From an uncultured Bacteriovoracaceae bacterium (lineage in GTDB: Bacteria > Bdellovibrionota > Bacteriovoracia > Bacteriovoracales > Bacteriovoracaceae): a stretch of DNA of 64,000 nucleotides. The position numbers were made by a program, and so were the translations under genes. Of the stretch, positions 36,992 to 41,629 are shown one piece after another; the stretch's first letter is position 1, and each line of letters opens with the position of its first letter. The stretch is from the NCBI GenBank assembly GCA_938034385.1, contig CALHLC010000013.1, forward strand, positions 1 to 64,000. The letters run 5' to 3'. The notes beneath the pieces were generated by a model. That model did not search any database and was not told the DNA's origin. It saw only the letters and a program-made list of their open reading frames with translations.

Positions 36992-37110
36992 TCGTGCAGG
37001 TGTAAGTTTATTTTGAGTTGAGTTAAATAAAAAATAAAGACTTCTATCATTTGATTCTTCTATCTAGTAAACTGGAGACAGACTTGATCAATATGACAGG
37101 TACTAGGTTT

Positions 37111-37812
37111 ATGAAATATTTAATTGTTGGCAACGGGGCACTGGCCCAAAACATTTCCTTTTATTTTTCTTCATTAAAAATTGATGTTCTGTCTTGGTTT
37201 AAAAATTGTGGTAATGAATTATCTGAAGTTACTAAGAAAGCTGATGTTGTACTTTTGGCTATCTCTACATCTTCATTAAAAAATATCTTTGAACAATACC
37301 CTTGTCTTAAGTCAAAAAAATGTTTTCACTTTTCTGGAAGTTATTACTCTGAAGAAATTTTTGGTATGCATCCTTTGATGAGTTTTCCTAAAGATGAAAT
37401 ATTAGACTTGAAGACTTTGCAGTCGATGAGCTTTGGAATTGATTTTAAGAAGAATGAATTTCATAAAAACTTTCCAGGTCTTAAAAATCCATTAATAGAA
37501 ATTTCGCCAGAAGATAAGATTTATTATCATTTTCTTTGCGTGATGAGCGGGAACTTTTCTAAATATTTATGGGAGTTTGTGAAAGGGCAGTTCCAAGAAA
37601 AGTTTGGAGACTCAGATCACCTTAGAGAATATTTAAAAAGAACTACTACAGAGATCTTAGATTCTAAGAGTAACTTTACAGGTCCTTTAGAAAGGATGGA
37701 GAGTGAATTAGTGCAGGATTATGAAATCATTTTAAAAAATAACAAAAATTTACAAAACATACTTAAAGCTTTTAAAGACTTTAGAAGAGAGGAGTTTGAT
37801 GAAATACGTTAA
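37111..37812 (+). CDS. Rossmann-fold/DUF2520 oxidoreductase-like protein, candidate ketopantoate reductase
   Basis: 233 aa. The N-terminus MKYLIVGNGALAQ is a dinucleotide-binding motif, followed by ADVVLLAIST. FHFSG...FGMHPLMSF and TGPLERMESELVQDYEIIL are hallmarks of DUF2520 proteins, relatives of ketopantoate and pyrroline-5-carboxylate reductases. The gene opens an operon that otherwise holds the pantothenate and CoA genes panB, panC, coaC, coaB, coaX and panD but no panE. It is therefore a reasonable candidate for the missing reductase. I use the ATG at 37111 at the Rossmann strand; TTG 37051 and ATG 37093 are alternatives. It overlaps panB by 14 bases. Confidence 0.7.
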   Translation: MKYLIVGNGALAQNISFYFSSLKIDVLSWFKNCGNELSEVTKKADVVLLAISTSSLKNIFEQYPCLKSKKCFHFSGSYYSEEIFGMHPLMSFPKDEILDLKTLQSMSFGIDFKKNEFHKNFPGLKNPLIEISPEDKIYYHFLCVMSGNFSKYLWEFVKGQFQEKFGDSDHLREYLKRTTTEILDSKSNFTGPLERMESELVQDYEIILKNNKNLQNILKAFKDFRREEFDEIR

Positions 37813-38578
37813 GAATTTTAAAAAAGGTGAGAAGAAACTGTCGATGGTGACCTGCTATGATTACACTTTTGCTAAGCTTATTAGTCAAACTGAGATTGAT
37901 TGTATTTTAGTTGGAGATAGTCTTGGGATGGTCGTCTATGGTCATGAAAATACTTTAAGTGTAACTACACAGATGATGAAACTTCATACTGAAGCTGTTA
38001 AGAAAGGGTGCCCTGATAAAATTATTATTTCTGATATGCCCTTCTTATCAACTAGAAAAGGTATCTCTTATGCTATGGATGTTGCACATGAATTAATGAG
38101 TGCAGGATGTTCAGGTATAAAAGTTGAAGGAGTGATAGGACAAGAGAAAGTAATTTCTTCTTTAGTTCAATCCGGTATCCCTGTGATGGGACACTTAGGA
38201 TTGACTCCTCAGTACTATCAATCACTTGGCGGATTTAAAGTTCAAGGAAGAGATAAGGAGAGCTTTGAAGAGATTGTTCACCAAGCATTACTATTAGAAG
38301 ATCTTGGCGTATTTTCTATTGTTCTTGAATGTGTTCCAAACTCTTTAGCAAAACAAATCCAAGAGAAAGTAAGTATACCTATTATTGGCATTGGAGCTGG
38401 AGTAGATGTTGATGGACAAGTTTTAGTCTTGCATGATCTGCTAGGTTTGAGTGGAGAGAAATTTAAGTTTGTAAGAGATTTCTCTAGTCTAAACACAAAT
38501 GTTATTGAGGGAATTAATTCTTATGTTTTGGAAGTCAATGAAGAGAAATTTCCGAGTCTTGATGAGAGCTTTAAATGA
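37799..38578 (+). CDS. panB: 3-methyl-2-oxobutanoate hydroxymethyltransferase
   Basis: PanB transfers a one-carbon unit from methylene-THF to ketoisovalerate to give ketopantoate. The 259-aa TIM-barrel protein has MVTCYDYTFAKL, VGDSLGMVVYGHENTL (metal and substrate site), the GIKVEG strand, GHLGLTPQYYQSLGGFKVQGR and IIGIGAG. GAGGAG lies five bases before the ATG at 37799, within the end of the DUF2520 gene. Length is normal. It overlaps panC by 4 bases. Confidence 0.96.
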   Translation: MKYVKNFKKGEKKLSMVTCYDYTFAKLISQTEIDCILVGDSLGMVVYGHENTLSVTTQMMKLHTEAVKKGCPDKIIISDMPFLSTRKGISYAMDVAHELMSAGCSGIKVEGVIGQEKVISSLVQSGIPVMGHLGLTPQYYQSLGGFKVQGRDKESFEEIVHQALLLEDLGVFSIVLECVPNSLAKQIQEKVSIPIIGIGAGVDVDGQVLVLHDLLGLSGEKFKFVRDFSSLNTNVIEGINSYVLEVNEEKFPSLDESFK

Positions 38579-39330
38579 AAATCATTAAGTCCGTAGAAGA
38601 GTTTAAAAGTTTAAGAGAGGCAATCAGTCCTAGAACAATTGGATTTGTTCCGACCCTTGGTGGACTCCATGAAGGACACTTAAGTTTAATAAAAGAGAGT
38701 ATTAAAAATAATGAAATGAGTGTAGTTTCAATTTTTTTAAATCCAACTCAATTTAATAATGAATCTGATTTAGCTACTTATCCAGGATCATTAAGTGATG
38801 ATCTTAAGACCTTAGATAGTCTTGATGTAGATATAGTCTTTACTCCTAGTAATGAAGCGATTTATCCAAATGGCTATAATTATAAGATTTGCGAAGAAAG
38901 AACATCATCGATCCTAGAAGGTGAGTTTAGACCTGGCCATTATGAAGGTGTCTTAACAGTAGTGATGAAATTATTAAATATAGTAAACCCGAAAAATGCT
39001 TACTTTGGAGAAAAAGACTTCCAGCAATATATTCTTATTAAAAATATGGTAGAAGATTTTTTTCTAGATATAAATATTATTGCTCTCAAAACGATTAGAG
39101 AAAAATCTGGATTAGCAATGAGCTCTAGAAATAATAGACTGAGTGATGAAGCGAGGCAGAGGGCCTCTCTAATTTATAAAAGTTTATTAGAATCACCAAG
39201 TGATGAGCATGCTCGAGCAACTTTAGAAGAGCAGGGTTTTAATGTAGAGTATATTAAATCTTGGATGGGCCGAAGGTTTGGTGCTGTTGAGATAGAAAAA
39301 GTGAGGTTAATTGATAATGTCAGCTTATAA
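38575..39330 (+). CDS. panC: pantothenate synthetase
   Basis: PanC joins pantoate and beta-alanine with ATP. The 251-aa protein has the nucleotide-binding PTLGGLHEGHLSLI (HxGH type, about 26-39), FLNPTQFN, RPGHYEGVLTVVMKLLNIVNP, YFGEKDFQQ and the AMSSRNNRLS loop, all conserved in the family. It is about 30 residues shorter than the E. coli enzyme, mainly at the C-terminal dimer/helical region. The ATGA overlap with panB shows translational coupling; it overlaps coaC by 14 bases. Confidence 0.95.
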   Translation: MKIIKSVEEFKSLREAISPRTIGFVPTLGGLHEGHLSLIKESIKNNEMSVVSIFLNPTQFNNESDLATYPGSLSDDLKTLDSLDVDIVFTPSNEAIYPNGYNYKICEERTSSILEGEFRPGHYEGVLTVVMKLLNIVNPKNAYFGEKDFQQYILIKNMVEDFFLDINIIALKTIREKSGLAMSSRNNRLSDEARQRASLIYKSLLESPSDEHARATLEEQGFNVEYIKSWMGRRFGAVEIEKVRLIDNVSL

Positions 39331-39880
39331 AAGAGTCTTATTAATAATGACTGGATCAGTTTCAGTATATAAAGCAATTGATTTACTTTCTACTTTCAAG
39401 AAAAAATCAATTTACTGTGATGTAGTAATGACGAAAAATTCAAAAAAATTTATAGGTGAAGCATTGGTTGAAGCAATGACTGATAGAGCACCTCTTAGTA
39501 AATTATTTGATAGATCAAAAATGATGGACCATATCTATCTAACAAGAAATTATGACTTGTTTTTAGTTTATCCAGCTAGTGCAGACTTTATTGCTAGAGT
39601 CGCAAATGGAAGAGCGGATTGTTTAGCCAGTGCAACTTTATTGGCACTAAATTATAAGAAGCCTCTATGGATTGCTCCATCAATGAACCCTTCAATGTAT
39701 GCAAACCCGGCAACTCAGGAAAATATTTCGAAATTACAGTCTTGGGGAGCAGAATTTTTAGGACCTAATGAAGGAGTTGTTGCTTGTGGAGATCAAGGCA
39801 AAGGAAGATTGATTGAACCTTTTGAAATAATGGAGAAAATGATTAATGAAAAAAATATTAATCGTCTCGGGACCAACTAG
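39317..39880 (+). CDS. coaC: phosphopantothenoylcysteine decarboxylase (separate CoaC)
   Basis: Flavoprotein of the HFCD family that decarboxylates phosphopantothenoylcysteine. The 187-aa protein has TGSVSVYKAIDLL (FMN site), YPASADFIARVANGRAD, APSMNPSMYANPATQENI and ACGDQGKGRLIEP with the active Cys. These are the features of the N-terminal half of the bifunctional CoaBC. Here the frame ends before the ligase domain, which is encoded by the next gene in another frame. The start is the ATG at 39317 inside panC; a TTG lies six bases upstream. Confidence 0.9.
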   Translation: MSAYKRVLLIMTGSVSVYKAIDLLSTFKKKSIYCDVVMTKNSKKFIGEALVEAMTDRAPLSKLFDRSKMMDHIYLTRNYDLFLVYPASADFIARVANGRADCLASATLLALNYKKPLWIAPSMNPSMYANPATQENISKLQSWGAEFLGPNEGVVACGDQGKGRLIEPFEIMEKMINEKNINRLGTN

Positions 39881-40508
39881 AGAGTCAATAGATAATATTA
39901 GGTTTGTCTCTAATATTAGCAGTGGGAAAACTGGTCGGTTTTTAGCAGAATTTTTTAGTGAGCAAGGATATGTTGTATCGCAACTTTATGGAATAAACTC
40001 ACTTTTTTTAGAAAATAGTAGAAGTGAGAGTTTTTCAAATTTTAAAGACCTTCAAGAGAAAATTCAAAAAACGTTAGGAGAATCAAACTTTGACTTAGTC
40101 ATTATGTGTGCAGCTATTAGTGATTATACTCCTAGTGAAGTTGTGGTGAATGGAAAAGAGTATAAGGTTAAAGAGTTTGACAAGATCCCATCTGGGAATG
40201 AATTTGAATTGAAATTCAGAAAAAATCCGAAATTGATTCAATTATTAAAAGAATATTCAAGAAATAAAGAAATTAAAGTTGTTGGCTTTAAACTAACAAG
40301 CAATGCAAATGAGATAGAAGCTCAACATGCAATACAAAAACTATTTCGAGGTGAATTTGTAGACTATGTGATCCATAATGATTTATCTGGGATCACTGAC
40401 AAGACGCATATGGGAAGAATATTTGATGCTCAAAAGATGTTGTGCATTTTTGAGAGTAAAGTAGCTATGGCAAAAAATTTATTAAAAATATGGGAGAAGC
40501 AGCGATGA
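39846..40508 (+). CDS. coaB: phosphopantothenate-cysteine ligase (separate CoaB)
   Basis: CoaB forms phosphopantothenoylcysteine. The 220-aa protein has VSGPTRESIDNIRFVSNISSGKTG, the nucleotide-binding start of the family, CAAISDYTP, and VVGFKLTSNA, with a late DYVIHND. It overlaps coaC by 35 bases in a different frame, so the usual CoaBC fusion is split. A frameshift in a former fusion would look similar, but both parts have proper starts and ends, so two genes is more likely. Confidence 0.9.
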   Translation: MKKILIVSGPTRESIDNIRFVSNISSGKTGRFLAEFFSEQGYVVSQLYGINSLFLENSRSESFSNFKDLQEKIQKTLGESNFDLVIMCAAISDYTPSEVVVNGKEYKVKEFDKIPSGNEFELKFRKNPKLIQLLKEYSRNKEIKVVGFKLTSNANEIEAQHAIQKLFRGEFVDYVIHNDLSGITDKTHMGRIFDAQKMLCIFESKVAMAKNLLKIWEKQR

Positions 40509-41272
40509 TTCTTTGTTTAGATGTTGGAAATACTCAAATGTTTGGCGGAGCTTATGATGGAGATAAGTTTCTTTTTTCTTTTCGTAAAAAAGGAGTTGAG
40601 GGATTATCAAGTGATGAGTTGGCCCTTTTTCTTGGGAACATCTTGAGAGAACAGAAATTAGATCCCAAAAGCATTACCGCTGTAGGGTTTTGTTCAGTTG
40701 TTCCATCAGTTATACATTCTTTAAAAAATGCAGTGAGGAAATATTTAGATATTGAGCCTATAACTTTGGGACCTGGAATGAAAACAGGGCTTAAAATTAA
40801 ATATAAAAATCCGCTTGAAGTTGGTGCTGATAGAATCGCCAATGCAATGGGAGCTAATGTTTTATTTCCCAATAAAAATAAAATTTTAGTTGATCTTGGA
40901 ACCGCGACTACTTTTTGTCTTGTAAATGACAAGAATGAATACCTTGGTGGAGCGATAGCTCCAGGGCCTAGAATTTCTATGGAAGTATTAGAAGAAAAAA
41001 CTGCGATGTTACCATCAGTGGAAATTATTAAACCTGAAAATTGCTTGGGACAAACGACTATTGAATCTATTCAATCAGGAATTTATTTTTCTCAACTTGG
41101 TTTGATTAAAGAATTAGCTAATAAATATAAAGAGGAAGTTTTTAAAGGTGAAGCGATTATTATAGGAACAGGTGGTTTTTCTTCAATGTTTAAAGGAGAA
41201 AAAGTTTTTGATGAGATTGTTTCTGATTTGGTATTAAAGGGATTATTAAGTTTTATATCTAAAAATGTTTAA
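40505..41272 (+). CDS. coaX: type III pantothenate kinase
   Basis: CoaX phosphorylates pantothenate, is not feedback-inhibited by CoA and needs a monovalent cation. The 255-aa protein has the ASKHA phosphate-1 motif DVGNTQMFGG (5-14), VGADRIANAMGA, DLGTATTFCLV and GGAIAPGPRIS. The ATG at 40505 follows GGGAGAAG and overlaps the coaB stop by ATGA; an upstream ATG at 40490 has no site. The choice of CoaX, rather than CoaA, is typical of many non-enteric bacteria. Confidence 0.95.
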   Translation: MILCLDVGNTQMFGGAYDGDKFLFSFRKKGVEGLSSDELALFLGNILREQKLDPKSITAVGFCSVVPSVIHSLKNAVRKYLDIEPITLGPGMKTGLKIKYKNPLEVGADRIANAMGANVLFPNKNKILVDLGTATTFCLVNDKNEYLGGAIAPGPRISMEVLEEKTAMLPSVEIIKPENCLGQTTIESIQSGIYFSQLGLIKELANKYKEEVFKGEAIIIGTGGFSSMFKGEKVFDEIVSDLVLKGLLSFISKNV

Positions 41273-41281
41273 AGGAAAAAA

Positions 41282-41629
41282 ATGGCAAGCTTAGAAATGT
41301 TAAGAGGAAAGATTCATAGAGCAACTGTGACTGATGCAAATTTAAATTATGAAGGTTCGGTATCAATTGACCCGAAACTTTATAAAGCTGCAGGACTGAG
41401 GTTAAACCAGAAGGTCGATATTGTTAACGTCAATAATGGTGAAAGACTATCTACTTATATCATTAAAGGAAAAGATGGCGAGATTTGTCTTAATGGAGCA
41501 GCTGCAAGAAAAGCTGAGATTGGAGATAAAGTAATTATTATTGGATATCATTCTATAGACGAGGACCAAGCTGATTCTTATACACCTTTGCTTGTTATGG
41601 TTGATGAGAAAAATAAGCAAGTAGACTAA
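41282..41629 (+). CDS. panD: aspartate 1-decarboxylase
   Basis: PanD makes beta-alanine from aspartate and uses a pyruvoyl group formed by self-cleavage. The 115-aa proenzyme has the cleavage site YEGSVSID, so the break is Gly25-Ser26. [14 protein letters not shown] before it and [12 protein letters not shown] and ICLNGAAAR after it are family features. AAAGG precedes the ATG. It closes the operon and ends 12 bases from a convergent gene. Confidence 0.97.

Follow-up and report, generated by a model that had tools for sequence, protein, structure and literature searches.

The description of PanG is reportedly that of Miller et al. 2013 (J Bacteriol 195:965). In PMC4207893, PMC5449765, and PMC4494066, PanG of Francisella and Enterococcus is credited to that study as a ketopantoate reductase distinct from PanE, and PMC4572677 describes homology of a DUF2520 protein to EF1861 (E. 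faecalis) and FTT1388 (Francisella), for which ketopantoate reductase function was shown. PanG replaces PanE and, going by PMC4572677, shares the DUF2520 family with the protein described here. A ketopantoate reductase role was published for the DUF2520 protein PanG in 2013, so the function itself is not new, and an earlier note on this DNA was out of date in expecting the locus to provide DUF2520 with its function. The 'PanG' of B. subtilis (YkpB) is a name clash: PMC11487621 describes it as belonging to the PanE family, and it is not the DUF2520 PanG.

Two other enzymes are relevant to the same step. PanE (ApbA) has the same expected reaction as the protein described here and belongs to the same 6PGDH-like superfamily; the latter protein, however, has no match to PF02558 or PF08546. 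IlvC is an alternative supplier of the step that belongs to a different family and is absent from the source genome; it acts on ketopantoate in Corynebacterium glutamicum, according to PMC4353338, and in Buchnera (PMC4306246).

The window, i.e., the whole stretch of 64,000 nucleotides analyzed from an uncultured Bacteriovoracaceae bacterium, carries the gene order DUF2520-panB-panC-coaC-coaB-coaX-panD, with DUF2520 first and the genes from panB onward assigned by Pfam/NCBIfam models:

37111..37812, + strand: DUF2520 / PanG-type ketopantoate reductase (proposed panG), 233 aa, DUF2520 match
37799..38578, + strand: panB, 3-methyl-2-oxobutanoate hydroxymethyltransferase
38575..39330, + strand: panC, pantoate--beta-alanine ligase
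39317..39880, + strand: coaC, phosphopantothenoylcysteine decarboxylase half of CoaBC, separate ORF
39846..40508, + strand: coaB, phosphopantothenate--cysteine ligase half of CoaBC, separate ORF
40505..41272, + strand: coaX, type III pantothenate kinase
41282..41629, + strand: panD, aspartate 1-decarboxylase

The junctions from DUF2520 to panD measure, in order, -14, -4, -14, -35, -4, and +9 nt, so the genes form one tight operon. The AGGAG ribosome site of panB lies inside the DUF2520 gene, whose end overlaps the panB start by 14 nt. The DUF2520 gene starts with ATG; an alternative TTG upstream at 37051 would lengthen the ORF, but in an alignment the closest relatives of the protein begin at the MKYLIVGNG position. 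Compared with a congener, the gene has a dN of 0.18 and a dS of 2.4 (saturated); since dN/dS is about 0.08, purifying selection acts on the ORF, which is therefore a real gene. A search with Rfam found no element in the operon or in the region before it, and predicted promoters and terminators were no more numerous than in shuffled sequences.

The step that the DUF2520 protein would fill has no other evident occupant in the genome (2.67 Mb, 99% complete). At E<=0.001, there is no match genome-wide to the PanE models PF02558 (ApbA) and PF08546 (ApbA_C) or to the IlvC model PF01450 (KARI_C); in 14 control genomes, ApbA matches 14/14, ApbA_C 8/14, and KARI_C 14/14. The search for panE and ilvC, named in the earlier note as a check, thus found neither, and no canonical panE was detected elsewhere. 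With PanE and IlvC lacking, the DUF2520 protein is the sole candidate ketopantoate reductase in a genome that keeps panB, panC, panD, and coaX. IlvD is also absent. A branched-chain aminotransferase, IlvE, is encoded at locus L147 and exceeds the curated thresholds of two NCBIfam models. The earlier note had the operon holding every step from ketoisovalerate and aspartate onward except PanE. This is correct from ketopantoate formation to 4'-phosphopantetheine and needs amending at the entry point, because with IlvC and IlvD absent, ketoisovalerate must come from valine via IlvE.

The lack of valine synthesis suggests a nutrient-rich lifestyle, and it could be taken to mean that the pathway is broken at the reductase step, with pantoate or pantothenate taken up, perhaps from prey, and with only a remnant operon persisting. 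This reading is very unlikely given that the operon genes are all intact and overlapping, that strong purifying selection acts on panB, panC, and coaX as well as on DUF2520, that gene set and linkage are kept across the phylum, and that the presence of IlvE provides ketoisovalerate from valine.

That the first gene encodes a Rossmann/DUF2520 protein, as first noted from the sequence, is confirmed by both profile and model. PF10728 (DUF2520) scores 26.5 bits, near its threshold of 25, and is the sole Pfam family over its cut-off in the 233-aa protein; Zn_ribbon_DnaG and other weak Pfam matches fall below theirs. The same model gives 23.7-73 bits for congeners and family members, and DUF2520 was found in 10/10 family members tested with Pfam. 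The AlphaFold model (pLDDT 90.8, pTM 0.81) confidently places an N-terminal GxG in a Rossmann strand/loop, with the Rossmann domain spanning approximately residues 1-110 and the helical DUF2520 domain approximately residues 111-233. Conserved features include H73-x-SG, H87-P, Y139-H140, N148, and TGPxxR (190-195). Among them, S75, G76, H87, P88, Y139, H140, N148, G191, and R195 are invariant both in the class alignment and in the source protein together with 58 distant sequences.

The best fold matches of the model in the PDB are the DUF2520 structures 3d1l (BF3122) and 2i76 (TM1727), followed by KARI (IlvC), pyrroline-5-carboxylate reductase, and imine reductases, which places the protein in the 6PGDH-like superfamily. 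The family alignment profile retrieves the same two DUF2520 structures (2i76, E=1e-14; 3d1l, E=5e-14), whose entries carry no function; the relative of BF3122 type in Bacteroides has no pan linkage in the record examined. A phmmer search of the PDB with the single protein returned only DksA and DnaG, which are chance matches, and an alignment profile was needed.

These comparisons bear on whether 37111-37812 could be a true PanE (ApbA) that has diverged beyond the reach of the models. Superfamily and expected reaction are indeed the same, but the Pfam match is DUF2520 and not ApbA/ApbA_C, PanE is not among the 50 fold matches listed for the model, and profile searches of the PDB with the DUF2520 family do not return it. 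Fold and profile results largely refute a divergent PanE, which we consider scarcely credible. The protein is accordingly a relative of PanE-type reductases, as had been claimed, only in the sense that both belong to the 6PGDH superfamily; its sequence gave no PanE-family match.

Gene context links DUF2520 to pantothenate synthesis well beyond the source genome. In the class sample (129 genomes, 118 with panB), DUF2520 occurs in 10 genomes, each time directly 5' of panB on the same strand, 23-92 nt before the panB match. In the phylum sample, it occurs in 155/369 genomes, and it adjoins panB and panC in all 29 further phylum loci examined; the ApbA_C domain of PanE is absent from 148 of the 155. 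Outside the phylum, pan genes lie beside or near DUF2520 in 73/80 loci, mostly from Bacillota; a few of the 80 are from other phyla, among them Chloroflexota, Fusobacteriota, and Elusimicrobiota, and in Thermomicrobium roseum, pan genes likewise neighbor DUF2520. A minority of DUF2520 proteins, from Bacteroides, a Legionella plasmid, Novosphingobium, and Monoglobus, have no pan linkage in the records examined. The Bacteroides copy (BF3122 type; L064:2806-3600) adjoins HAD-hydrolase and Maf-like genes instead of pan genes, for which reason DUF2520 as a whole may have more than one function.

The slot 5' of panB also shows a pattern of mutual exclusion. Across the 118 panB-bearing genomes of the class, it holds an IlvC-like gene in 102, DUF2520 in 10, both in none, and neither in 6 (Fisher p=8e-11, kinship between genomes being ignored).

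The pan-linked DUF2520 protein of Enterococcus is homologous to the source protein over its full length. A profile of the source family aligns end to end with the DUF2520 protein of E. faecium DO plasmid 3 (hhalign, 208 columns, E=6.9e-18), although identity to Enterococcus and Clostridium relatives is only about 20-25% and the source protein is shorter than that of E. faecium (233 vs 286 aa). In a tree, one branch (support 98) divides the DUF2520 proteins of the phylum from a Bacillota-dominated group. Linkage of DUF2520 to panB, panC, and panD is shared with E. faecium and Clostridia, E. faecium DO plasmid 3 having the order DUF2520-panB-panC-panD. Unlike this PanG-type cluster, the source operon, with its predicted reductase, also holds coaC, coaB, and coaX. 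A profile search of genome contigs found Enterococcus and Clostridium and did not find E. faecalis or Francisella.

Many E. faecium plasmids carry DUF2520-panB-panC-panD (e.g., L060, NZ_CP017793.1; L066, NC_017963.1), and the enterococcal copies are automatically annotated as 'Rossmann-like and DUF2520 domain-containing protein'. In some E. faecium strains, the first gene of the cluster is readable only as an unannotated ORF of reduced length, close to insertion sequences; the copy of NZ_CP017793 is such an unannotated ORF of 166 aa, and the intact copy of another strain was used for comparison. The contig profile search also revealed DUF2520 copies in E. raffinosus and E. avium that are near-identical and thus suggest recent transfer.

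Given the absence of PanE and IlvC, the linkage to panB across phyla, the exclusion with the IlvC-like gene, and the homology to the PanG kind, we consider it highly probable that 37111-37812 encodes a PanG-type ketopantoate reductase that is non-orthologous to PanE, an assignment made from sequence, fold, and gene context. The replacement that the earlier note put forward as a possibility is thereby strongly supported. The N-terminal Rossmann domain is expected to bind NAD(P)H and the helical DUF2520 domain to close over it, the conserved Tyr-His...Asn and TGPxxR residues of the latter putatively lining the substrate pocket. PanB would make 2-dehydropantoate from valine-derived ketoisovalerate, the DUF2520 protein would reduce it to pantoate, and PanC would join pantoate to beta-alanine supplied by PanD, after which CoaX, CoaB, and CoaC would carry the product on to 4'-phosphopantetheine. 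With this assignment, the pantothenate pathway has no gap in a lineage for which a missing step would be reported by standard annotation, and there is a case for renaming pan-linked DUF2520 proteins PanG.

A different 6PGDH-superfamily reductase might instead perform the step, leaving the DUF2520 protein to serve the pan operon in some other way, perhaps as an accessory. Reductases of this superfamily are promiscuous (PMC4353338), as the Buchnera IlvC illustrates (PMC4306246); a PanE-like protein co-occurs with DUF2520 in 7 of the 155 phylum genomes; and some DUF2520 proteins, such as those of Bacteroides and the Legionella plasmid, are not pan-linked. We nevertheless regard this explanation as improbable, since the source genome has no ApbA/PanE or IlvC match and the slot before panB is filled by either DUF2520 or an IlvC-like gene, never by both and rarely by neither. 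One of the seven genomes, G127, has a pan-linked DUF2520 (L030) and a PanE-like protein elsewhere (C9:9505-9930).

The IlvC-like gene that takes the place of the PanG-type gene in relatives precedes the panB match by 9-143 nt (e.g., L019:286-1275, L020:365-1315, L021:5726-6697, L022:455-1405, and others; G104, G003, G043, G001). Its products score weakly on KARI_C, at about 68-107 bits, as opposed to 188-215 bits for true IlvC (G062, G120, G121), and two examples fall under the curated ilvC cut-off of TIGR00465 (185 and 176 vs 226 bits). Within the class, IlvD is found only in G062 and three genomes of genus g45 (G120-G122), so the slot protein cannot serve valine synthesis in nearly all genomes that carry it. 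The group keeps Asp191, Glu195, Glu227, Glu231, and Ser252, aligned with positions that we take to be the metal/substrate ligands of KARI. The slot protein is likely a descendant of IlvC that is dedicated to ketopantoate reduction. It is probable that the bacterial family of the source genome fills the slot before panB in two ways: (i) with PanG (DUF2520) in the phylum-wide operon and (ii) in about 100 genomes, with a divergent IlvC-like protein that no longer takes part in valine biosynthesis and now acts as a dedicated ketopantoate reductase, with the KARI metal ligands kept. A literature search found no paper on a dedicated IlvC-type ketopantoate reductase in a pan operon. This slot occupant offers a natural test of the change from reductoisomerase to dedicated reductase.

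The operons with an IlvC-like gene have the order IlvC-like, panB, coaX-like, coaBC, panC, and their PanB proteins form a separate clade in a tree (support 100); with both gene order and PanB clade distinct, it is the whole operon that differs and not one gene. CoaBC is split into the overlapping coaC (39317-39880) and coaB (39846-40508) in the source genus and several relatives; L014 (G028) and the IlvC-type operons have it in fused form.
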